Source of the DNA: Arenicellales bacterium
Lineage (GTDB): Bacteria > Pseudomonadota > Gammaproteobacteria > Arenicellales > JAJDZL01
NCBI GenBank assembly: GCA_958295885.1
Contig: OY282380.1
Span: 1,178,001 to 1,242,000, forward strand
Direction of reading: 5' to 3'
Length of the DNA: 64,000 bases
The notes below the pieces were generated by a model. That model was not told the DNA's origin. It searched no databases and saw only the letters and a program-made list of their open reading frames with translations. Positions within the stretch are counted from its first letter, which is position 1, and each line of letters opens with the position of its first letter. Positions 2,986-32,966 of this stretch are shown here, one piece after another. A program made the position numbers and the translations under genes.

Positions 2986-4833
2986 TCATCCAATTCCCGA
3001 CAACGACGACAGGGGCTGTAATATGTCTCGGTTGCCCATCACACCACCAATCAAGGCCAATACTCCCCAGATCAGCATAACGAGGCCAGATCCTTTCCAA
3101 AAATATGCCCACCCGCTGGCATTCACTTTCAATTCCTGCGTTGCACCCAGAAATACGCCGGCGATAATCAGCAACAACGCCCACAAAATCAATACCGGAA
3201 CCTCTGGAATGGAGCCAAGAAGGTAAATTGCGACACCTAACAGAATCACCCCAAAGCCCTGCTTCAATCGATCCATCCATGCTCCGGCTTTGGGCAGGGC
3301 CATGGCGAGACCGAAGCCAATTGCAATCAAAATCACACCCATTCCCAAAGCCATGGCTGTCATCATTGCCGCACCCAGCACTGGGTCTGCTTTTGCTACG
3401 GCTATGCCTAATAACGAAATGAGCAAAGGAGATACGCAGGCACTGACAATCAAGGCGGATAAAAGTCCCAGCACAAACACTGCACCAACCTTACCGCCAC
3501 CGAGTCGCATCGTGCCGGACTGAAGCGTGGCTTCAAGTGATGATGGCATTCTAATTTCGTAAAAACCAAACAGTGACAATGCCATGAGCACAAAAATGAC
3601 CGTCATCGCACCAATGGCCCAAACATTTTGCAGATACGCCTGCAGCTGTTCTCCAGTTGATCCCGCTACGGCGCCCACAATGGCGTAAGCAGCCACAGTG
3701 CCCAGTACGTAAGTGATTGAAAGAGTTCCACTTCGAATTCTCGATTGGTTCTCACCTTCACCGACAATGATGGACGAAAGAATTGGAATCAGCGGTAACA
3801 CGCAAGGAGTGAATGTCAGAAGAAATCCCGTACCAAATGCAGTGATGACCAGCCACCAGAACGATTGACCTTTCGACTCTGTTCTCCCGAATCCGGACCC
3901 ACCAGAACTGGACCCACCCGTATCTGCAACTGCAGCGCTGACCAAGCTCACCAGTGGAATTCTGAATGTCTTCTGCACCGGCGGATAACAGATTAAATCC
4001 TTTGCACAGCCTTGATACTCCGCCGTGATTTCAAGTACGTCGGACTCCGGACTGGCTCGAATCAGTGGTATTTCGAACTCAAAACTTGCAGGGTAAATGG
4101 CAGTAACGCCGAAGTAAGGATCATCCATTACTTCGCCCTCGGGCAGTACGGCTGGCATCAGTCTGACTTGGTCCGAGGGTTCGAATTTCAGCTTGTCCTT
4201 GTATACGTAATACCCTGGTTCGACTTCAAACAGGGCTTTCAGACGTTCTCCGTCCACTGACCACATATCCAGAACAAATGCATCATCTACGTCAAGCAGG
4301 TTTTCAGCTGTAACGCTTGGCATATCGCTGAACAGGCTACTGAGTGCATTCGCCTCACTCATGGCTGACTCATCTGTCTGTGCAGCTTCCGCTGCCGAAA
4401 TCATTGCAAAGGGCAATGAAACGATATTGCTCTGGGGCGGGAAACAAATGCCGATCGGCTCATTGCAGCCTTGACCCCAAACTTCCAGTTCGACTCCGGT
4501 TACCTGTGGTTTATCCGCCGACAGAGGAATTCGAATTTGAGTTTTTTCCGTAAAAATAACAACCTTTCCGAAGAATGGATCGTCTTTTGCTTCACCAGGG
4601 GGTATTCCAAGGTCACCGACTGTAATATCTTCAGTCAGTGAGTTGACCCAGAATTTATCCTGATACATGTAGTAGCCATCTGCAATATCCCAGGTCGCAA
4701 CGAGTTCGTTCCCGACAAGTTTGCTGCTGAACGCGAAGGCTTCTTCAGGCGGCAGCAATTCCTCATCATCCTGCCCAAAAGATACCGAAGAAAGCAAAAT
4801 TGTAACTAGAAATAATACGAATTTATTGTTCAT
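2986..4833 (-). CDS. dsbD: DsbD-type thiol-disulfide interchange protein lacking the C-terminal gamma domain
   Basis: This inner-membrane protein transfers electrons from cytoplasmic thioredoxin to the periplasm. The 615 residues contain a signal peptide (ending near SFGQ), two tandem nDsbD (alpha) domains and a polytopic membrane domain from about residue 325. Each alpha domain carries the Cys pair block (GQGCNEPIGICFPP and YQGCAKDLICYPP). The beta-domain cysteines are in FTPCVLPLIP and SACVSPLL. The protein stops shortly after the last membrane helix (LALIGGVMGN). The usual thioredoxin-like gamma domain with its CxxC is absent, and no in-frame continuation follows. The alpha duplication and gamma loss together are unusual. 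The TlpA-like gene downstream may act as a separate gamma module. The membrane DsbD identity is firm. Confidence 0.92.
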   Translation of the reverse strand: MNNKFVLFLVTILLSSVSFGQDDEELLPPEEAFAFSSKLVGNELVATWDIADGYYMYQDKFWVNSLTEDITVGDLGIPPGEAKDDPFFGKVVIFTEKTQIRIPLSADKPQVTGVELEVWGQGCNEPIGICFPPQSNIVSLPFAMISAAEAAQTDESAMSEANALSSLFSDMPSVTAENLLDVDDAFVLDMWSVDGERLKALFEVEPGYYVYKDKLKFEPSDQVRLMPAVLPEGEVMDDPYFGVTAIYPASFEFEIPLIRASPESDVLEITAEYQGCAKDLICYPPVQKTFRIPLVSLVSAAVADTGGSSSGGSGFGRTESKGQSFWWLVITAFGTGFLLTFTPCVLPLIPILSSIIVGEGENQSRIRSGTLSITYVLGTVAAYAIVGAVAGSTGEQLQAYLQNVWAIGAMTVIFVLMALSLFGFYEIRMPSSLEATLQSGTMRLGGGKVGAVFVLGLLSALIVSACVSPLLISLLGIAVAKADPVLGAAMMTAMALGMGVILIAIGFGLAMALPKAGAWMDRLKQGFGVILLGVAIYLLGSIPEVPVLILWALLLIIAGVFLGATQELKVNASGWAYFWKGSGLVMLIWGVLALIGGVMGNRDILQPLSSLSGIG

Positions 4834-19645: not shown

Positions 19646-20731
19646 TGGAAGAGATTCTTGAGCAATCTTGAAGCTTGGTTTTGGCCGCAGCCGAACGCGG
19701 GCCGCTCTTTTGGATTCAATTTGCGATGTCTTCTTCTTTCGAAGGTTTAATATGAACAACCCCAACCCTTTATCATCGAGGATATTCCATGTCAGAGTCC
19801 GATCATTCAGCCGCTTCCGGCAAAAAGCCTGCCAATATTCATGACGATTTCTTCAAGGATGTCTTTAAGGAGCGCAAATATGTCACCAGCCTGATTCGGG
19901 TGGGCGCACCAAAAGCGCTGTTTGAGATTATTGACTGGGATTCTTTGAGGCTCGAGTCGCAGTGGATTAAAGCAGACCGGCAGAAGGAGAAGTTGGCCGA
20001 TCTGGTGTTTTCCGCGACACTGAAAGACAGTGAGCGTACGGCCAGAATCGTCCTGTTGTTTGAGCACAAAAGCTATCGTGACAACTATCTGGACAAGCAG
20101 ATGGCCCACAATCAGTTTCTGATGTATCTGCAAAATGATTTTCAGTCGCTGATTGTGCCGATTGTGGTGTTTCAGGGTCCGTGGTTCAAGCATAGGTCGG
20201 TAACGTTCAGCAACCTGTTTTCCGACTATTCAGAACAGCATCTGCGAATTCTGACCGAGTATTCGGTCAACTTCCGATGTCTGCTGATTGATGTGAATGA
20301 AATTGATCGCCGGGGGGGGGCTGGCGGAAAAAACCAACATTGACGCGGTGATCCGTGCGATGTCCACGGTGCGAGACTTCGATGTGAGCGACCTGCCGGA
20401 TCTAATGGACCGAACCAGGCATGTTCCAGCCGAGAAGCGGGCAAGGATGTTCAAGTTGGGGCTTGGTTATGTTTGCGATTACAATTACGACATTAAACAG
20501 GATGACATACTGAAATTGGAAACCAAAACATCGGAGGAACAGCAGATGGTTCTTTCAGCTGTGGAAGCATTCAGGGAAGAAGGCCGGGCTGAAGGTCTCC
20601 AAGAAGTTCGTCAAGAATTTGCAGCGTATTTGCTGCAAAAAGGCATGGGGCCGGAGGAAATTGTCGAGGTGACGAAGCTCAGCCGGGAACAGGTCGAATC
20701 GCTTCAACAAAAGATTAACAGCACTTCGTAA
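19646..20731 (+). repeat. ~1.08-kb dispersed repeat, copy A (Rpn gene plus ~140 bp upstream)
   Basis: The sequence from GAGATTCTTGAGCAATCTT (19,650) through the Rpn-family gene to about 20,725 is closely similar to the reverse complement of 32,010-33,108. The match includes the untranslated leader (GGCCGCAGCCG, GGGCCGCTCTTTTGG, TGCGATGTCTTCTTCTTTCG, GAGGATATTCCATG). The two copies are inverted relative to each other about 11 kb apart. Confidence 0.85.
19789..20731 (+). pseudogene. Rpn-family recombination-promoting nuclease, frameshifted at a 9-G run
   Basis: Rpn proteins are PD-(D/E)XK nucleases related to transposases (PF04754 type). The first frame (19789-20343) contains DDFFKDVFKERKYVTSLI, the LADLVF Asp and the FEHKSYRD Glu-x-Lys of the nuclease site. 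It then enters a run of nine G (20312-20320) and ends shortly after. The rest of the protein (IDAVIRAMSTVRDFDVSDLP onward, to 20731) is in the frame 1 base off. The intact paralogue at 32010-32966 reads straight through at this point without a G run. With eight G (or five) the frame would be restored. This is therefore either a simple inactivating slip, a phase-variable tract, or a sequencing error. Confidence 0.85.
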
Positions 20732-21098: not shown

Positions 21099-22877
21099 TT
21101 AATCTTTCTGCGATACCAAAGGCATCATCGACCTCCGTATTCTCATCGCCGCATATAGTTTCTTCGCCACTTTTCCCAACCGCATTGGAATCGCAGATCG
21201 CTGACTGGTTTTACGATGCTCAAAGACGCAATACAGTGCCATGAGCAAGGCATCCCGAATCACCTTCGGCGAATACCGTGCTGTTGCAGACCCATCCGAT
21301 ATTGCAGATGTTTCACATACATCAGAGTCATGAACGAAAGAGCGATATGCGCCTGAACTCGGTGCGGCGGGCGTCGAGTGAAAGATCGGCCGCATCTTCA
21401 TGATCGTGTTTGGTGATGCGAAAGCTCTGTTCGACCTGCCATAGCCCGCGACAATTCGACAGCGCATGGTCGTCGGGCATCGTCGGCACATTGGCAACCA
21501 CTCCATGCAAACCGTCCCATTGCTGCGCCTGTTCGATTTTGTTCGGGCTAACCAGCACGCGGCTGCTGTCCTGCATCCGCGCGAAGAGCTTGTAACCGCA
21601 GTAGCTCATCAGCACCTTGGGTCTTTGACTCCCGTTGAGTTTCTCCGGCAACTTGTTCACGGCTTTTTCCCGAACAGGACGGACCTTGCGCGCATGTTTC
21701 TTACAATGACTGACAATCACTCTTCGTTCACCGGCGAAAAAATACGAACCCCAATTTGTGGCGAGGACTGACATTAGTCTAAATCCAAGACCTGAGTTTT
21801 CAGCTTCTGCGGCAGGTTTTTTAAGCGAACGCCGACAATGTAATACCGGCCCACTTTCTGCAACTATTTGAGATTGTTGTCGTTCAACGCGCCTCGGTCG
21901 GTTACGCAATCACATTTTGCACCTTGAAATTCGCCCTTAGGCGTTCCGCCACCGACAGCAGATTTCGATGCTAATTCAATAGCGTCAAAAGTGCTAACGA
22001 AAAGTCGTCAGTTACCGCACTCGAAATTTCGCTCATTTGAAACAAACAAAAGTCCTTTTTCAGTTCGGTCAAGGATCAAGCGCATGTCTGTGCTTCGTTC
22101 ACGGTTTTTGTTTTTGGTGGTCGTCCGCGCCGTTTCGGTACTGGCGGCGGCACGACGTCAGTATGGGGTTTTCAGATTCTGCGGCATCAGGTCGCAGTGC
22201 CGTCAAAGACGATGACTGTTTCCTTCAATCTGAATGTCCACTGTTGGGCGTGTCGTTTCGTCGTGCCGGGCCTGCAGCTTGGTCAGCATCTGCTGCAAGG
22301 GCTAGGATTCGGCAACATTGCCCGGCAAAATTTCACAATAACACGGAAAACCGGCGCGGTTGATCGCCAGCACCATGCTGACTAGGGGACAGTCGCTGCG
22401 CTTCTGTTTGGAACGCCCGAAGCATTCCAGGCTGCTATTTTGACGACCATGGCAGTGAACATTGGTCAGATCGTAAAACACAACGGCAGCCGGAAGATCA
22501 AGCAGTTGGCGTTCGCGCTGCCACAGTCCCTGCTGCAGGTCGCTGCGATGTTTCCACAGCAGATCATTGAGACGATACAGTTTGCTCAGCGAAGGAGGGA
22601 GTGCCTGGTCCAGTTCCAAGATTTCCAAAATGGCGCTGTCTGACTTTATCTTAGACGCGGTAATTTTCGACCAGTCGGCAGGAGTTCTGGGGCTGTCCGT
22701 TTTTGCGGATGTAGGTTTTGACGGCTTTGATAAACATAGTCGGTAGTATTGATGAATAATCGGTGATTCACAAATAAACATGTACCAACATAAGACTAAA
22801 AACGAAATATTAGCAAATAACTTTCTTTTATAGGTAGAAAAGTAGAATGAATTTCTGACAAATGTCAGAAATACCAA
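21099..22877 (-). pseudogene. IS1634-like (IS4 superfamily) transposase, multiply frameshifted
   Basis: Minus-strand frames line up as one decayed transposase. The 5' part (22877 to about 22302) holds the block around VVFYDLTNVHCHGRQ and CFGRSKQKRSDCPLVSMVLA, with GFPCYCEILPGNVAE, which is the first catalytic Asp region of this family. The middle (about 22300-21800) is heavily shifted. The part at 21328-21909 has FFAGERRVIVSHCKKHARK, then LWQVEQSFRITKHD, the catalytic Glu region. The end at about 21120-21300 carries LLMALYCVFEHRKTSQRSAIP in another frame. Overall length (about 1.8 kb) is that of a full element, so it decayed in place. No passenger gene is present. Confidence 0.8.
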
Positions 22878-23619
22878 TTGAACATTCTACTGGATTGGGC
22901 AAAAATCATGAAAATGCCCAAATTCAGTGAACAAAGTGACGAACAAAGGTTGAATTCATGCAAACCGTTCAGCCCAGACCAGATCACCTGCCCGGCAATA
23001 CTCGATCCAAGCAAAATTTGGCATCAACCATGTCGGTTCGTTGCAAGCTGACGATTACCCGCCATTTCAATTTGAAATGGCACCACCCTGAAGATTGAAT
23101 GGCAATCAACACTGGTCTCAGAAACACGTCAATCACGGCTCAAGTGAATGCTTACAAATGTTTTAAAGATAGCTGATTCCAGCTGTCAGTAGAATCAGTC
23201 GTACGCACAACGGGCATTGACTGTCATTCTTCCTTACATGACTGAGCCCAATTGTTTTTGTTCTCCTACAACAGAATTACTCCAAAATATTTAAATTGTA
23301 ATGCTTTCACAGTCTCATTGGCGTAGTGCGAGCCAAAGCGTAGATTGGGCTGCGCTATTTTTGCTACAGCATGAAGCGATTGAGTTCTTTGGCTCCGTCG
23401 GCAGCGACGGTCTAGGGATGATTGACCCGAATGAGTGAAATCGAGGGTAGCAAAGCTCAAAATTGGCTTATTCAGGCTGATTTTTGGTGAAAATGGATGA
23501 AAAATTCCGATCTTTTCAGTTTAACGACAACTGAGTGCAAGATTTCTCAAACATTTTTTGCGCAGTACTCGATAGTCGTAAGAAGGCAGAGTTACATAGA
23601 TGTGCGTATAACTCCGAAT
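22878..23619. other. Intergenic region with hairpin and IR-like motif
   Basis: No gene is supported in this 0.74 kb. It contains a short palindrome (23061-23081, GCCATTTCA-ATT-TGAAATGGC) and, at about 23,298-23,325, a reverse-oriented copy of the GAGACTGTGAAAG motif found at the ends of the possible MITE. It forms the 3' flank of the PIN-domain gene. Confidence 0.45.
23061..23081. repeat. Perfect 9-bp-stem inverted repeat
   Basis: GCCATTTCA and TGAAATGGC pair around a 3-base loop. There is no T run after it on either strand, so a terminator role is uncertain. Confidence 0.5.
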
Positions 23620-24153
23620 TTAACATAACATATTATGATTTGCGGTTAATACCGATATTCCACAATTCTTGAAATCTCCATCGTCTGTGACCAACTTTAG
23701 GTTTTTGCACTTACACAGATTCCCAATAACTTGATCATTAAAATCAGTACCACCTTTTGCGTATTCATCAAGCAAGCTTTCTATATCCAAACTTGAAAAC
23801 TGATTTTCGATACGCGAACAATGACTCAGTACGCGCGTCATTTTGCCCGCTACTTCCTTAGCGATAGGTTTAAATTGGGAACTATTACGAAAAGCTTTGA
23901 AATGAAGTTGAGACCTTGTTTGCCGCCACAAAATTCTAGTGTGGGTGTTAATGAATTCTGAAACAATAAGAACATCAATATGAATAGAGCTTTGCGCCTC
24001 CAGAATTCGACGGAATGCCGAAGAGTAGACCATTTCCCTTGACCTATTATAATTTTGGGGGCCATAAATCAACAGCCATATGTTTGCATCTAGAAATAAT
24101 TCATCTTCCGGCTGAAATTCATAGTTTGCTATTGACAATGGTTTATTCACCAT
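23620..24153 (-). CDS. PIN-domain protein (predicted ribonuclease), third gene of GHKL-STAS-PIN operon
   Basis: The 177-residue protein has the features of a PIN-fold nuclease. They are an early acidic motif ELFLDANIWLLIYG (Asp22 with Asn24), Glu66 in VSEFIN, and the C-terminal acidic cluster GTDFNDQVIGNL (Asp137, Asp140) followed by LVTDDGDF (Asp157-Asp160). These acidic residues would bind Mg/Mn and cut RNA. The spacing and context differ from ordinary VapC toxins; no VapB-like antitoxin is next to it. Instead it starts 6 bases after the STAS-like gene, so all three genes are one transcription unit. I infer that the nuclease is the effector of a module controlled by the two upstream proteins. 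No experimental data for this combination are known to me. Confidence 0.8.
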   Translation of the reverse strand: MVNKPLSIANYEFQPEDELFLDANIWLLIYGPQNYNRSREMVYSSAFRRILEAQSSIHIDVLIVSEFINTHTRILWRQTRSQLHFKAFRNSSQFKPIAKEVAGKMTRVLSHCSRIENQFSSLDIESLLDEYAKGGTDFNDQVIGNLCKCKNLKLVTDDGDFKNCGISVLTANHNMLC

Positions 24154-24159
24154 AAAAAT

Positions 24160-24507
24160 CTATCCCAATTCTTCTTTCATTGCCTGCTCATAACTTTGAC
24201 GGTGCTTAAAGTATCGCTTCGCTGAATCGACAACGCGTCTAAGCAGCTCCTTATCATCGGGTTCTATGTCGACTGCCGTCAAAAGTTTACGAATTTGAAC
24301 TTCATCAAAATTACCGTATAACTGTCCGACCGCTACGTTTAGAAACGCAGAGGTTAAAGTGGACACATGAAGAAATGACAGAGCGACTGGCTGTTCTCGT
24401 CCTAGTGCGGCGGATAGACGATCGTACACTTTTTGACCATCACTCGATGCGACGCAAAAGGGACTTCCGACAACTTCGAATAATTTAATTTGTAGTCTTT
24501 TTTCCAT
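24160..24507 (-). CDS. STAS-like domain protein (DUF4325 family)
   Basis: This 115-residue cytoplasmic protein matches the STAS-like DUF4325 family in its key segments. It has a start region with GSPFCVASSDGQKVYDRLSAAL, then VALSFLHVSTLTSAFLNVAVGQLYG, the block in which the STAS anti-sigma-antagonist Ser/Thr segment would lie (STLTSAFLN). The family is often found next to GHKL-type ATP-binding proteins, which recalls SpoIIAA/SpoIIAB partner switching. Here it lies 10 bases after such an ATPase gene and 6 bases before a PIN nuclease gene. A regulatory role by phosphorylation or by protein-protein switching is inferred from the fold and the neighbours, not shown. Confidence 0.82.
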   Translation of the reverse strand: MEKRLQIKLFEVVGSPFCVASSDGQKVYDRLSAALGREQPVALSFLHVSTLTSAFLNVAVGQLYGNFDEVQIRKLLTAVDIEPDDKELLRRVVDSAKRYFKHRQSYEQAMKEELG

Positions 24508-24517
24508 TTTTGAGACC

Positions 24518-25393
24518 TCAGAAAATACTGCCAGATGTAATTTCAGAAGTTAGAGCATATGATTTCTGGTCTGCGGTGTTGATCTGTATATTCACAACCG
24601 TACCTGGGAATGGATGATCTAATCGCGTTACAGTAGTTTCCCTGTTTTTTCGACTCCAATAACCAGCATCAGAAACAATTTGAAAGCATCCATCATTTTG
24701 ATCAATGAATTCGCGAAGCAATTTTAACCCTAACCCACCTGGAATGTTTGTAGATTTAGTCGTGTGGAAGTCCCTTGTTGCCCAATCAATCGCTTCCTCT
24801 GGTTGAATATCTGAATTGAGATAACGGCGGACTCTTTCCGGTATACCAATTCCCAAATCTGCTACACTGAAAGCAAGTTGGCTTCTATTTGGAAAAAACT
24901 GTCCGCAGCTAAAGACTCCCCATTTCGTTTCAGAATGCAGTCCTGCATTGCTGAAAATTTCAAGAACACTCTTGCGAAACTCTTTTTTCAACCCGACTGA
25001 CATTGACGGCATTTCGTCACGGTCCATAAATTCACGCTCAATGTAGATGGAAAAATATTGATCATCCTTAATATCGAATCGACGGTAGGAAACTGTCGTG
25101 TCCCAAAGATCAGACATTGGTTCCCCACCATAGTGAATGAGAAATCCATTCTTCGATAGGACTTTCTCCACATTTGGAGAAACATTAATCAAACGAACTG
25201 AATTCAATTCGACACCCAACAAATATAATATTGCTCCGAGTGCCGCGCACATGTCCGCATCGAACCAAGTCGTTAATTGCATGTCAATTTCAATGACATC
25301 AAAGAAGCAGTCCTTAGTAGCTGCGTAAAGTTGTGTCAGCAATGCAATTCCATTCTGGTCGTGATGAACCTGATTTTGCAATAAGAATTTCAC
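24518..25393 (-). CDS. GHKL ATPase with N-terminal STAS-like region
   Basis: The 291 residues start at a GTG at 25393. The first ~95 residues (VIEIDMQLTTWFDADMCAALGAILYLL) look like a STAS-type fold. The rest is a histidine-kinase-like ATPase: N-box EIFSNAGLH (145-153, with Glu145 and Asn149), G1 box DLGIGIP (179-185) and G2 box GGLGLKLL (219-226). There is no DHp domain, phospho-acceptor His or membrane segment, so it is not a normal sensor kinase; it resembles anti-sigma-factor kinases such as SpoIIAB/RsbW. It heads a three-gene operon with a DUF4325 STAS-like protein and a PIN nuclease. The promoter should be in 25394-25560. Confidence 0.85.
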   Translation of the reverse strand: MKFLLQNQVHHDQNGIALLTQLYAATKDCFFDVIEIDMQLTTWFDADMCAALGAILYLLGVELNSVRLINVSPNVEKVLSKNGFLIHYGGEPMSDLWDTTVSYRRFDIKDDQYFSIYIEREFMDRDEMPSMSVGLKKEFRKSVLEIFSNAGLHSETKWGVFSCGQFFPNRSQLAFSVADLGIGIPERVRRYLNSDIQPEEAIDWATRDFHTTKSTNIPGGLGLKLLREFIDQNDGCFQIVSDAGYWSRKNRETTVTRLDHPFPGTVVNIQINTADQKSYALTSEITSGSIF

Positions 25394-25914
25394 ATCGTAA
25401 CCGCTTTGATTATCATATCGTATTTACTAGGAAATTCCTAGACTATGGCAACAGTTGCAGAGTCACTATGCAATTGAATCACTCCAAGTGCGACACGCAG
25501 ATATCTTCAAAGTTATTGACTGTGCAAACGGAAACCGATACATAAAGAGATATATCAATCTCATCTAGTATCTAAACATTGTTATCTGAAAACGATTCTA
25601 TCAGAGATACACCCAAATCCGAAATTTGAAATTCTGTTATGGATTAATCACCTACTATTGCATAGTATCAAAAATTTTATCTTGGTTACATGTCTGCCAT
25701 GGGTCTCCGCAGCAATTCTTGAGTTGATTAATTGCCAAAAGTACTGTGTGATGGGAAAAATTTCATGCAACTGCCAGTTCGCAGCCGTTAACTTCAATTC
25801 CGTCTTTGAATTGTACTCCTTCAATTGGACTTCTTCCTGTTGGACGCGCATTTTAGAAAATTCGAAAAGTGAATATTCTTCAATCTGAAAGATTCAGCTG
25901 CAGCTGGCTACCTA

Positions 25915-25953
25915 TTACACATAAATTAAGTCGGAACTTAACTTATGGTGTAA
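25915..25953. repeat. Near-perfect 17-bp-arm inverted repeat
   Basis: TTACACATAAATTAAGT and ACTTAACTTATGGTGTAA pair around CGGA with one bulge and one mismatch. It could be an operator, a transposon end or a transcript hairpin. It is close to, but not directly at, any gene start. Confidence 0.6.
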
Positions 25954-25964
25954 CCAGCCTTCTT

Positions 25965-25990
25965 TTTGGGTCTGCATGCGCAGACCCAAA
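25965..25990. terminator. Perfect 11-bp hairpin, bidirectional terminator candidate
   Basis: TTTGGGTCTGC pairs perfectly with GCAGACCCAAA around the loop ATGC. A run of T precedes the stem on the plus strand (which would read as A before the stem and T after it only on the other strand). The shape suits a terminator for minus-strand transcription leaving the IS4 remnant. Confidence 0.45.
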
Positions 25991-26040
25991 TCATGTGTTC
26001 GCGACAGCCACACCAATTGGATATAGCCTTCCCAAATTTT

Positions 26041-26930
26041 CTTGTATCCAGGTGGTGGATCATTTTTTCAATTCAAATAACCAGCGATCATGGCCATCGC
26101 CACCATACCGGTTCCGAGATTTTCCGGCACGGATAAGCGATATCTGCGTGTGAAATCCTCCAGCACCCCGATTTCGATCTCTCTGAACAGAACTTCCATC
26201 GGCAATTCCGGGGTTTCCTGACCCAGCAGCGTCATGGCTGCCAGCAGCGCCAGGCGATGACTGCGTTGATGGTGACCGCAGGCTCAATGCGCTCGCCTGT
26301 GCGATGCTGCAGAAACTCCACCCCGCAGCCGGATTTCAAATTCCGATGCCAGTCCTCTCAATGCGCCAGCGCAGAAGATAACACTGCACCACAGCGGTGG
26401 TCTGCTCCGCGCTGCTCACGGGCAAGCTGGTCAGCAATAACCACTCCAGCGCCTTGACCCCAAGCAGATTCAAGGGCCACTTGAAATTGTAACTCAGCGT
26501 CATCAGACTGAACTCGCCTCGCCGCGGGATGCTGCTTCATCCTTTGACGATGTTGGTCCACCACGTCCTCATGTTCCCAACAATCGATCCTACGCACAGC
26601 TGCTGTAATCCCAATTAATCCGTAGAAATAGTTCATAATTCGAAATAAACCGAACCCGCTCATCGCTGGTAGCTTTTCTGAAGAGCGGCCTTCGCCACTC
26701 CAATGACATTGACCGAATACAATCAGCAAAGGTACGGCGGTCCCCCAGCGCACACTGGCTACGGCTCAGTGTCATCTCCAACATCCGCAGAACCTGTCCG
26801 GCCGCCTGCGTGCCGCGTCCCTTCGCACCTCCCGGCAGGCCAATGGCATTTACTTAGTGATAAATACGTGTTGACTTAATAGTACGCACCTCGCGGACGA
26901 CTGTTTTCATTGAAATATGTTACTTTATGC
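26041..26930 (-). pseudogene. IS4-family (Tn5-like) transposase, internally deleted and frameshifted
   Basis: Minus-strand frames give an apparent N-terminal segment (CALGDRRTF near 26,740). After a large gap comes the C-terminal core of a Tn5-type transposase: VKALEWLLLTSLPVSSAEQT, then LLRWRIER (the Y/R-E region), and in the next frame ETPELPMEVLFREIEIGVLE. The DDE core before these is missing and the frame changes at least twice. It lies immediately downstream of the intact DruA-IS4 fusion gene on the same strand. It is a dead copy. Confidence 0.75.
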
Positions 26931-29173
26931 TACTGGTTCGTCGATGCCTGAGGTTGATTTCGTTTACGAATCCATTTGTTTCGCGGCTGTTTCGATTGGC
27001 GCGCATAGGAACGATCAGGACGTTGTTTCTGACGTTGCCTGCTGATGCTGCTGACGATGGCATTGACCGTAGAAGCAATCAGTTCTGCCTGTCGCAGCAC
27101 CAGCTGTTCCAGACTGCGGGCCATCACCTTCAGCGCATGCTTGAAATTCACCTGTTTTCTGTCTTCTTCGGGCGCGCCCTGGATTCGATCTTCACTGTAG
27201 TTGGTGAAGATTCGCGTGAGCGTGATCAGCACAAAGTGCGCATACAGTTCCTGTTTGACGCCACGTTCTGATTTGGCATGAAACTGCTCGATGCTCAGCC
27301 AGGATTTGGAAATCTTGTACATCTCCTCGATGCCCCATCTTTGATGGTACAGATCAGACAGGTCCGAGATGGGATAGCGCACTGGATCCTGCAAAGTGAC
27401 CGCGAGCGTGTAGGTGGTGTCGGCATGGGTGTATTTCACCAGTCGCAGTTTCAGCGGCGGACATTTCACCTGCGCATGGCGGCGACGGATGCGAGTCCGG
27501 ATTTGCGCGGTTGGCTCAACCTCGATGATCTCATCGGTGCGCTCTGAGTCCATGAACCGGTCCATCGCCACGGTCAGGTTTTTCTGCAGTCGGAAGACTG
27601 CCTCCACACCTTGCAGCCAGTGCGCATGCAGCATCTCGTAGCTGTAATAACCGCGGTCATAGACCACGACGTCGTTTTCGTCCAGCTGCTTCAGATGCGT
27701 CAGCGCAAGCTTTCGTTCATTGCCATGCGATGCCAGCTCAAAGTCAATTGGAACGCGCGCCTTGAGCTGATACAGGCAGCTCACAAGTCCCTGTGGATAA
27801 TGCGCCTTGTCATTGGGCGTGCGATAACCGTTTTTAAGCAGTTTCCGCGGCAGGTTGAGCCGGCTGCCGTCAACCGCATGCAGACGATGTCCCTGCCACA
27901 GAAAGTCCTTTCGCTGCGCTTCGGAGCGCTGCAGAATGCGCTGCTGCAGAACCTTGAAGACCTGCTCATCCAGCTTGGCGCGCGCCCGGCTCATGGCGGC
28001 CGCAGTGACCGGCTGTGGCTGTGGCAGGCGGATCTCCAAGTCGCGGCACTGCGCCCATAATTCGTACAAACAGGTGGCATAACCCTGTCGATTGTCAGAA
28101 AACACCAGCCGAAAGATGAACAGCATCAACAACATCGTGTCGATCACTCGCCGCCGAACCCGCCACTTTTCATCAAATTCCGCCGCTACTTCCGAGATTT
28201 CGCCGATCAGATGCTGCCACAGCTGCACGAATGAATCCGAACTCGCCAGCGGCTTCGGCATTGCTGCCTGCGCGCGTTTTTTGCGCTTCGCACGAGCCTT
28301 TTCACCGTGCGCTAAAATCTCTCGAAAACCTTCTTCCAAAGGATACACATAGACACCTTTAGGGGTTTTTCCGGAACGCTTCTCGGTGGTGCCCAGATAC
28401 TGCCAGTTGGCCGCCCGATAACTGCTTGCCTCAAAGCGCGTCTCATCCACAAACGTCTCAATCAGCACCGGCCGACAGCCATGTTGGCACTGCCAGTCCT
28501 GCGGCAGCTGCCGACACACCAGCGACAAGGCCTTGGAAGCGAGATTTTTCACCCGCACCCACGGAAAGATCAGAAACCGACTGTTGTTGACCGCCAAGTG
28601 CAGATGTTTCTTGTGTTTCTGATCCTGCCAGCCAACCCACACATCCCGACACGGCAGCGCCTTGACTGCATACTGAAACAACAAACAGCCCAGTTTGCGA
28701 CCCTGACCGTCAACGATGAAATAACGCAGGTTCGCCCCGATCGGATGCCGGTATCCCAGATAATGATAACGCTCCACCCATTCGTTGAATTCCCCTGCCT
28801 GATCCGCAGAAGTCACCAGCTGCACAGAAAGCGGCATCAGCTCCGACAGCTCCGCCTGCAGCTCCGCCTGTTCTTCGGTGCGCGCCGTCAGCGCCAGCGG
28901 CCTGCTCTTGCCGCGCTTAAGATGCGACTGCTTCGGCGGCAGCTGCACAACGCCCAATTGTTCCAGTTCCTCCAGCAGCAGCAGCGCTGACTGGTAGCGA
29001 TTGACACCCTTTGATGTGTGCCAGCCTAAATGCTCACTGATCGTCTGCGCCAGCTCAGTCCGACTCAAATTCTCAAACAGCGAAACTGTCTGTTGAATCT
29101 CACCCAACTGTCTGCGGGTCAAACGATGACCGAAAAATGTCGTTGACTTCAACTTCTTAATGCGCTCATCCAC
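26930..29173 (-). CDS. IS4-type transposase with an N-terminal DruA-like (DUF4338) domain
   Basis: The 747-residue frame starts at the GTG at 29173, which has an AGGAG site 7 bases upstream; the longer frame from 29224 lacks one. Residues ~20-285 match the DruA/DUF4338 family: RLTRRQLGEIQ, ERYHYLGYRHPIGANLRYFI, DVWVGWQ, VNNSRFLIFPWVRVKNLASK and VLIETFVDETRF. Residues ~330-690 form an IS4 DDE domain: Asp435 in HAVDGSRLNL, Asp506 in VVVYDRGYYS and Glu616 in YHQRWGIEEMYKISK. That last block fits the Y-(2)-R-(3)-E-(6)-K signature exactly. A basic tail closes the protein. The gene is intact and the only full-length transposase in the window, so the element may still be active. Its terminal repeats were not identified. 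Confidence 0.9.
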   Translation of the reverse strand: MDERIKKLKSTTFFGHRLTRRQLGEIQQTVSLFENLSRTELAQTISEHLGWHTSKGVNRYQSALLLLEELEQLGVVQLPPKQSHLKRGKSRPLALTARTEEQAELQAELSELMPLSVQLVTSADQAGEFNEWVERYHYLGYRHPIGANLRYFIVDGQGRKLGCLLFQYAVKALPCRDVWVGWQDQKHKKHLHLAVNNSRFLIFPWVRVKNLASKALSLVCRQLPQDWQCQHGCRPVLIETFVDETRFEASSYRAANWQYLGTTEKRSGKTPKGVYVYPLEEGFREILAHGEKARAKRKKRAQAAMPKPLASSDSFVQLWQHLIGEISEVAAEFDEKWRVRRRVIDTMLLMLFIFRLVFSDNRQGYATCLYELWAQCRDLEIRLPQPQPVTAAAMSRARAKLDEQVFKVLQQRILQRSEAQRKDFLWQGHRLHAVDGSRLNLPRKLLKNGYRTPNDKAHYPQGLVSCLYQLKARVPIDFELASHGNERKLALTHLKQLDENDVVVYDRGYYSYEMLHAHWLQGVEAVFRLQKNLTVAMDRFMDSERTDEIIEVEPTAQIRTRIRRRHAQVKCPPLKLRLVKYTHADTTYTLAVTLQDPVRYPISDLSDLYHQRWGIEEMYKISKSWLSIEQFHAKSERGVKQELYAHFVLITLTRIFTNYSEDRIQGAPEEDRKQVNFKHALKVMARSLEQLVLRQAELIASTVNAIVSSISRQRQKQRPDRSYARQSKQPRNKWIRKRNQPQASTNQ

Positions 29174-29334
29174 CGCTGATCTCCTGACAAAATGATCCTT
29201 ACCTCTATTTTGACAGTACTGCACAAGAAAGTCAAATGCGGATGTGCAATTTTTTTACATCCCTCGATTTGCCCGCCATATCAATCTGTTGCCATCTCTA
29301 CAAAAAACTGCAAATACACTTATCCTATGTTAAT

Positions 29335-32009: not shown

Positions 32010-32966
32010 TTAGAGTTCTGAGGTTCCGTTAATCTCCTGCCAAAGCGATTCGACCTGTTCGCGGCTGAGCTTCGTCACTTCGACAACTTCCTGCGGCCCC
32101 ATGCCTGCTTGCAGCAAATTCGCTGCAATATCCTTACGAACTTCTTGACGTCCTTCTTGACGTCCTTCTTGGCGTCCTTCTTGACGGAATGCTTCCACAG
32201 CTGAAAGAACCATCTGTTTTTCCTCCTGTGTTTTGGTTTCAAATTTCAGTATGTCATCCGGGTTAATTTCGTTATTGTAATCGCAAACATAACCAAGCAC
32301 CAACTTGAACAGCCAGTCCCGGTCCTTGGCTGGAACATGCTTGATTCGATCCATTAGATCCGGCAGACCGCTTTCATCAAAGTTTCGCACCGTAGACATC
32401 ACGCGGATCACCGCGTCAAGGATGGTTTCTTTCGCCAGCCCCTTGCGATCAATTTCATTGACGCTGATCAGCAGACATTCGAAGTTGACTGAATACTTCG
32501 TCAGAATTTGCAGATGCTGTTCCGAATAGCCGGAAAACAGATTGCTGAACGTCACTGACCTATGCTTGAACCACGGCCCCTGAAACACCACGATCGGCAC
32601 AATCAGCGACTGAAAATCATTTTGCAGATACATCAGAAACTGATTGCGGGCCATCTGCCTGTCCAGAGCGTTGTCTCGATAGCTTTTGTGCTCAAACAAC
32701 AGGACGATTCTGGCCGTGCGCTCACTGTCTTTGAGCGTCGTGGAAAACACCAGATCAGCCAATTTCCCACCCTGCCGGTCGGCTTTGATCAACTGCGGCT
32801 CGAGCCTCAAAGCATCCCAGTCAATAATCTCAAACAGTTCTTTTGGCGCGCCTGCCTGAATCAGGCTGGTGACGTATTTGCGCGCCTTAAAGACGTCCTT
32901 GAAGAAATTGTCGTGAATATTGGAAGGCTTTTTGCCGGAAGCGGCTGATTGTTCGGACTCTGGCAT
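32010..32966 (-). CDS. Rpn-family recombination-promoting nuclease / putative transposase, intact copy
   Basis: The 318-residue protein is the uninterrupted relative of the frameshifted copy at 19.8 kb. N-terminal DNFFKDVFKARKYVTSLI leads to the PD-(D/E)XK nuclease site: Asp in GKLADLVFST and Glu-x-Lys in LLFEHKSYRD. The QFLMYLQNDFQSLIVPIVVF block and LPDLMDRIKHVP follow. Close to the C-terminus lies a run of four GRQE-type units encoded by 12-bp DNA repeats (about 32,137-32,185), then a KLSREQVESLWQEI helix. E. coli Rpn proteins are Ca-stimulated DNases that raise RecA-independent recombination. A similar role is inferred. The leader is also conserved between the copies, so the unit moves or is duplicated as a whole. 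Confidence 0.88.
   Translation of the reverse strand: MPESEQSAASGKKPSNIHDNFFKDVFKARKYVTSLIQAGAPKELFEIIDWDALRLEPQLIKADRQGGKLADLVFSTTLKDSERTARIVLLFEHKSYRDNALDRQMARNQFLMYLQNDFQSLIVPIVVFQGPWFKHRSVTFSNLFSGYSEQHLQILTKYSVNFECLLISVNEIDRKGLAKETILDAVIRVMSTVRNFDESGLPDLMDRIKHVPAKDRDWLFKLVLGYVCDYNNEINPDDILKFETKTQEEKQMVLSAVEAFRQEGRQEGRQEGRQEVRKDIAANLLQAGMGPQEVVEVTKLSREQVESLWQEINGTSEL
32137..32185. repeat. 12-bp tandem repeat within the Rpn gene
   Basis: The unit CGTCCTTCTTGA (or TTCTTGGCGTCC) is repeated about four times and encodes GRQE repeats. Copy number could change by slippage without breaking the frame. The paralogue at 20.58 kb has fewer units. Confidence 0.8.

Follow-up and report, generated by a model that had tools for sequence, protein, structure and literature searches.

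A very probable, diverged vapKSC operon in an Arenicellales genome

Operon layout and genomic surroundings

The window, that is, the whole stretch of 64,000 nucleotides that was analysed, belongs to a host genome of 4.42 Mb and carries three genes arranged as a single minus-strand operon, the kinase gene first, followed by those for the STAS protein and the PIN nuclease, with intergenic gaps of 10 and 6 bp. All three reading frames are intact. The genes are designated here as in the vapKSC operon named by Chambers et al. (EMBO J, 9 June 2026; PMC13373217). The genes, together with three codons referred to below, were positioned as follows:

24518-25393, minus strand: vapK, 291 aa, GTG start, with an N-terminal STAS domain (residues ~1-90) and a GHKL kinase domain (~110-275)
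24160-24507, minus strand: vapS, 115 aa, DUF4325/STAS-like protein, candidate antitoxin and presumed kinase substrate (matches PF14213 and 9z7o chain A)
23620-24153, minus strand: vapC, 177 aa, PIN-domain RNase, presumed toxin (matches PF01850 and 9z7o chain C)
24349-24351, minus strand: codon of VapS S53, the candidate phospho-acceptor, whose counterpart in the alignment is the serine given as S48 for Escherichia VapS in PMC13373217
24088-24090, minus strand: codon of VapC D22, the predicted catalytic aspartate, whose counterpart in the alignment is D28 of Escherichia VapC, within the residues LVDTN of 9z7o
25265-25267, minus strand: codon of VapK W43, candidate ssDNA-stacking aromatic, proposed from conservation in the kinase alignment

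An Rfam scan of positions 22500-26500 gave no match, PADLOC and NCBIfam scans of the trio returned nothing useful, and a promoter and terminator scan produced counts near the shuffled expectation. A 15-bp palindrome, CTAGGAAATTCCTAG, was located at 25427-25441, 33 bp upstream of vapK. It is single in the window (0.02 occurrences expected at up to two mismatches) and was found in none of the other loci searched except for own-genome copies of this locus. A second, guessed palindrome gave one match versus 0.05 expected but, as this lay outside the operon, it was discarded.

Around the operon lie transposases and unremarkable genes of transport, regulation and metabolism. They include a gene at 26930-29224 (minus strand) for a 764-aa protein that joins a DruA domain (PF14236) to a DDE transposase domain (PF01609), and two flanking YhgA-like genes (PF04754) at 19789-20343 (plus strand) and 32010-32966 (minus strand). 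PADLOC applied to ten window ORFs between 15.3 and 35.7 kb detected no defence gene beyond cross-matches of an ABC-transporter ATPase, and the trio is not represented in PADLOC-DB 2023. The surroundings therefore provide no local defence-island support.

Domains, folds and conserved residues

The VapK sequence begins directly in the STAS domain, with no N-terminal HTH. Its score against HATPase_c (PF02518) was 18.7 bits, below the Pfam cut-off of 26.4, so that the GHKL assignment rests on the fold. An AlphaFold2 model, calculated from the window sequence together with those of related loci, had a pLDDT of 84.5, and its three best PDB matches were to Bacillus SpoIIAB (1tid/1th8), followed at lower rank by STAS proteins, among them SpoIIAA and RsbS. 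The N-terminal STAS domain had no Pfam match. A predicted domain of this type is supported by the STAS chains among the fold matches and by a weak profile match of residues 21-84 to the anti-sigma antagonist TM1442 (E 0.061). The kinase motifs, namely the N-box (E145/N149/H153), D179/G181 and G220/G222, are invariant in all 19 alignment rows. Position 43 is tryptophan in 17 of these rows, phenylalanine in one and arginine in one. W43 is a candidate ssDNA-stacking aromatic and may correspond to the published F54 of Escherichia VapK, which stacks on ssDNA (PMC13373217), or to CapK W68. The kinases also match phrog_3364, a phage family listed without function, which thereby acquires a probable one.

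VapS scored 49.9 bits against DUF4325 (PF14213; Pfam cut-off 23). Searched by itself, it matched chain A, "Escherichia VapS", of PDB entry 9z7o with an E value of 2.8e-12, and the corresponding family profile did so with 1.2e-22. This entry is the crystal structure of the Escherichia STAS-PIN (VapS-VapC) complex (PMC13373217). The two VapS proteins are 31% identical over the 109 residues compared, and their C-terminal tails are of similar length in the alignment. The position of S53 is occupied by serine or threonine in 19 of 19 alignment rows, including the 9z7o sequence, and in the single-sequence comparison S53 was aligned directly, serine to serine, with its Escherichia counterpart. The latter is S48 when numbered as chain position 66 minus 18, by our own count, and is described as an absolutely conserved Ser/Thr position (PMC13373217).

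VapC scored 26.0 bits against PIN (PF01850; Pfam cut-off 23.6), and its family profile matched 9z7o chain C, "Escherichia VapC", with an E value of 5e-16. The model (pLDDT 90.6) found its best folds among VapC/PIN toxins. The four PIN acids, D22, E66, D158 and D160, are identical in all 15 aligned sequences, with relatives in the alignment set at identities as low as 22-25%. A single-sequence search with Escherichia VapC gave no match in the window's own genome at E ≤ 1e-3, because the window protein is too diverged for such a search; the two are linked through the family profile only. With the same query, tblastn found D. gobiensis alone among plasmids and nothing among phages. Separately, the edge of a viral contig (L087:1-525) encodes a VapC that is 92% identical to the Escherichia protein, and this contig seems by eye to carry P2-like tail genes.

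A preliminary description of this DNA, made from the letters and open reading frames, had proposed a three-gene operon of a GHKL ATPase, a STAS-like protein and a PIN nuclease with a complete acidic site, the first two resembling the SpoIIAB/SpoIIAA partner switch. The gene positions, strand and spacing are as it gave them; the ATPase call is confirmed by the SpoIIAB-like model, the partner-switch likeness by this fold and the STAS partner, and the acidic site by its identity across the alignment.

Distribution of the trio and of related kinase/STAS pairs

Conservation of the neighbourhood was assessed by searching a collection of species genomes with the kinase alone, so that the adjacent genes constitute an independent test. 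Ten loci were found, in Latescibacterota, two Nitrosomonas, two Nitrospirota, a gammaproteobacterium, three Planctomycetota and an uncultured bacterium. A DUF4325 gene lies next to the kinase in all ten and a PIN gene follows in nine, the contig of the tenth (L010) ending just past the DUF4325 gene. Two of these nine PIN genes, those of L007 and L016, are disrupted, perhaps through decay or misassembly. Plasmid P5 of Deinococcus gobiensis and the unannotated record MT837343 share this gene order, as does Streptococcus phage Javan172, where the trio lies between a repressor, an ImmA-like gene (assigned by eye from its HELGH motif) and the integrase. The arrangement is more than chance. The neighbourhood check put forward in the preliminary description thus found the PIN gene kept beside the pair within its own clade.

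A scan of viral contigs with VapS gave 16 loci, 13 of which comprise kinase, STAS and PIN genes, the PIN gene of one (L096) being split over two frames. There is some redundancy in this set, as L097 and L098 look like near-copies, L100 is apparently Javan172 again, and L103 is the same contig as L017. Of the three other loci, L103 ends in the STAS gene. In L102 (1087-3632), an unrelated 408-aa gene (phrog_7835, unknown function) stands between the kinase and a VapS-like gene and is possibly another output of the switch. L094 carries the VapS-like gene (4004-4312) with neither kinase nor PIN gene on a phage-like contig, which might, speculatively, be a phage-borne antitoxin decoy. Three loci (L074, L086 and L099) have the trio or the membrane variant described below in a prophage lysogeny module, beside a repressor, ImmA-like gene or integrase (partly identified by eye). 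A further vapKSC locus (L080:1486-3264) is directly followed downstream by a helicase-type, restriction-like gene, likewise identified by eye.

When VapK was searched against the 60 nearest-relative genomes, the only match was in the genome of the window itself. Absence of the kinase from the other 59 favours horizontal spread over vertical descent, and the trio was likely acquired in this way.

A survey of the phylum, in which the loci were sorted by reading, found DUF4325 in 26 of 299 genomes, at 30 places. The PIN trio accounts for four of these (own genome, G127, G130 and G269). At six (G088, G212, G338, G189, G133 and G341), the pair is followed by a gene for a hydrophobic protein of 147-219 aa, whose strong hydrophobic segment is near the N-terminus, and at four there is a kinase/STAS pair without a recognisable third gene. 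DUF4325 and GHKL are joined in one chain at 11 places, with an N-terminal HTH in at least five, a count that covers the chains other than that of G305. The remaining five are others, incomplete or remnant. Two of the DUF4325 genes are additional ones in the window's own genome (L051:5005-6051 and L052; G000:C1 near 1775856 and 1805454), the first encoding HTH, GHKL and DUF4325 in one chain of 348 aa and the second lying beside a kinase remnant. Because the PIN gene is present at only four of the 30 places, DUF4325 plus GHKL is as such no evidence for a PIN switch. The coupling suggested in the preliminary description accordingly holds for one clade of the pair, but DUF4325+GHKL pairs are not generally PIN-linked.

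A plasmid search with the membrane type gave 12 records, and eight of the nine opened have a hydrophobic third protein; the three unopened ones are from Vibrio and score the same as L085. No such protein is visible in the ninth opened locus (L081). L085 has no annotated kinase upstream, the kinase of L076 is a fragment behind a transposase, and the third gene of L077, which is unannotated, was read from the DNA. The membrane-type loci are thus L055, L056, L057, L061, L064 and L066 from the phylum survey, and L076, L077, L078 and L082-L086 from plasmids.

In a tree of 35 kinase+STAS pairs, from which L010, L017, L076, L081, L085 and the other viral contigs were left out, the 17 PIN rows form one clade (support 100/97), and none of 500 label shuffles gave a value as low for PIN clustering. 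Apart from this PIN clade, the 12 membrane-type rows group together with a single pair lacking a third gene. The phospho-acceptor Ser/Thr is kept in 17 of 17 PIN rows, 11 of 12 membrane-type rows and four of the six rows without a third gene.

The membrane-type third proteins are short, fast-evolving and predicted to be membrane-anchored; no Pfam family was matched above cut-off, and most of these proteins could not be aligned to one another by BLAST. They may be toxic effectors. That the pair of kinase and STAS protein is a switch of general use whose output can be exchanged, the PIN nuclease being just one such output, is a serious possibility that falls somewhat short of probable. If true, the STAS protein would restrain a membrane-acting effector as VapS restrains VapC, in a VapKSC-like but membrane-acting system. 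The wider survey suggests such reuse of the phospho-switch with a membrane output, in which case the pair would serve bacteria quite generally as a trigger module for self-harm. No description of the membrane variant was found in the consulted text of PMC13373217, from which the word "transmembrane" is absent, or in a literature search covering mostly open papers.

Interpretation and comparison with known systems

The Escherichia system provides the framework for interpretation. The main text of PMC13373217 reports 289 instances of vapKSC, toxicity of Escherichia VapC, and an antitoxin role of VapS that depends on its C-terminus. The VapS-VapC complex is 2:2, binding is lost with the S48E mimic, and E. 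coli carrying the operon is protected ~100-fold against one phage. According to the same text, direct demonstration of VapK activation by ssDNA and of VapS phosphorylation was not achieved. A literature search for partner switching, PIN domain and toxin had given no match before the structural match to 9z7o was obtained, and PMC7824862, considered as a prior account of a STAS+GHKL+PIN combination, was judged not relevant from the part of its text consulted.

The following defining sequence and fold features of VapKSC are present in the window: operon order, kinase motifs, VapS homology with its Ser/Thr, PIN acids and folds. We consider the locus very probably a vapKSC operon, that is, a kinase-controlled toxin-antitoxin module of anti-phage or DNA-damage type. 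The enzymatic activities, ssDNA sensing and RNA target would follow those of the Escherichia homologue, which for VapS is ~31% identical.

In the resting cell, the STAS domain of VapS would bind VapC and place its C-terminal helix near the active site, which would keep the nuclease silent. Single-stranded DNA arising from DNA damage or phage replication would switch on VapK, an anti-sigma-type Ser/Thr kinase of SpoIIAB fold, which would phosphorylate VapS at S53. Phospho-VapS would then release VapC, and the freed nuclease would cut RNA, for which rRNA or tRNA is the published guess (PMC13373217), and growth would stop.

Among the alternatives, a decaying remnant among transposases, with function possibly lost, is unlikely. 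Transposase and YhgA-like genes do flank the operon, and vapC is broken in the relatives L007 and L016, but none of the three frames in the window is interrupted, and the catalytic and phospho-acceptor residues examined are all retained.

It is very unlikely that the locus is a transcriptional switch of CapKS type, in which the STAS protein would be a DNA-binding repressor and the PIN gene its regulated target. In its favour, the kinase/STAS family is the same, published CapKS represses immune operons (PMC13373217), and a palindrome precedes vapK. However, among the loci searched this palindrome recurs only in own-genome copies of the window locus, no HTH or wHTH was detected in the Pfam scan, and lengths of 291 and 115 aa leave no room for one.

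An ordinary type II VapBC module, with a VapB-like true antitoxin and the GHKL/STAS pair as unrelated neighbours, would explain why the PIN protein folds like VapC. It is highly improbable, as the gene 6 bp upstream of vapC encodes a DUF4325/STAS protein rather than VapB, the order of the trio is kept across phyla, and in the solved complex 9z7o the homologous VapC is bound by the corresponding STAS protein. Almost no credence is given to a classical partner switch that frees a sigma factor, with the PIN gene as a bystander: the SpoIIAB-like fold of VapK and the conserved S53 would fit it, but the operon has no sigma-factor gene and the PIN gene is conserved at the third place within the clade. 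The phospho-acceptor position of SpoIIAA is presumably that of VapS S53.

As a vapKSC operon, the locus adds a diverged member to a system already known since June 2026 (PMC13373217). It widens the known range of this recently described, defence-type system and is useful for testing which residues carry the signal from kinase to toxin. The preliminary description had read the operon as a toxin-like or defence module with an unusual control principle. The first part is supported, since among characterised systems the nearest one is, according to the main text of PMC13373217, a defence module of toxin-antitoxin type; as to the second, a switch governing a PIN toxin is already published there, and the principle is not new.

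The closest likeness is thus to VapKSC of Escherichia sp. E4736, with which the window locus shares the gene order, domain make-up, VapS Ser/Thr and C-terminal tail, PIN active site, and kinase and toxin folds. It differs in that VapS is only 31% identical and a tryptophan, W43, is found where the stacking aromatic may be expected. CapK/CapS likewise comprises a STAS-GHKL kinase that phosphorylates a STAS partner at a conserved serine (PMC13373217), but CapK has an N-terminal HTH and the repressor CapS a C-terminal wHTH, and neither domain is seen in the window proteins. SpoIIAB/SpoIIAA and RsbW/RsbV share the kinase fold and the phospho-acceptor position (aligned for CapS in PMC13373217), whereas in the window the output is a nuclease instead of a sigma factor and a further STAS domain is attached N-terminally to the kinase. 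Finally, type II VapBC modules likewise pair a PIN RNase of VapC fold with an adjacent antitoxin gene, but their antitoxin is the DNA-binding VapB, in contrast to the presumably kinase-controlled STAS protein of the window.
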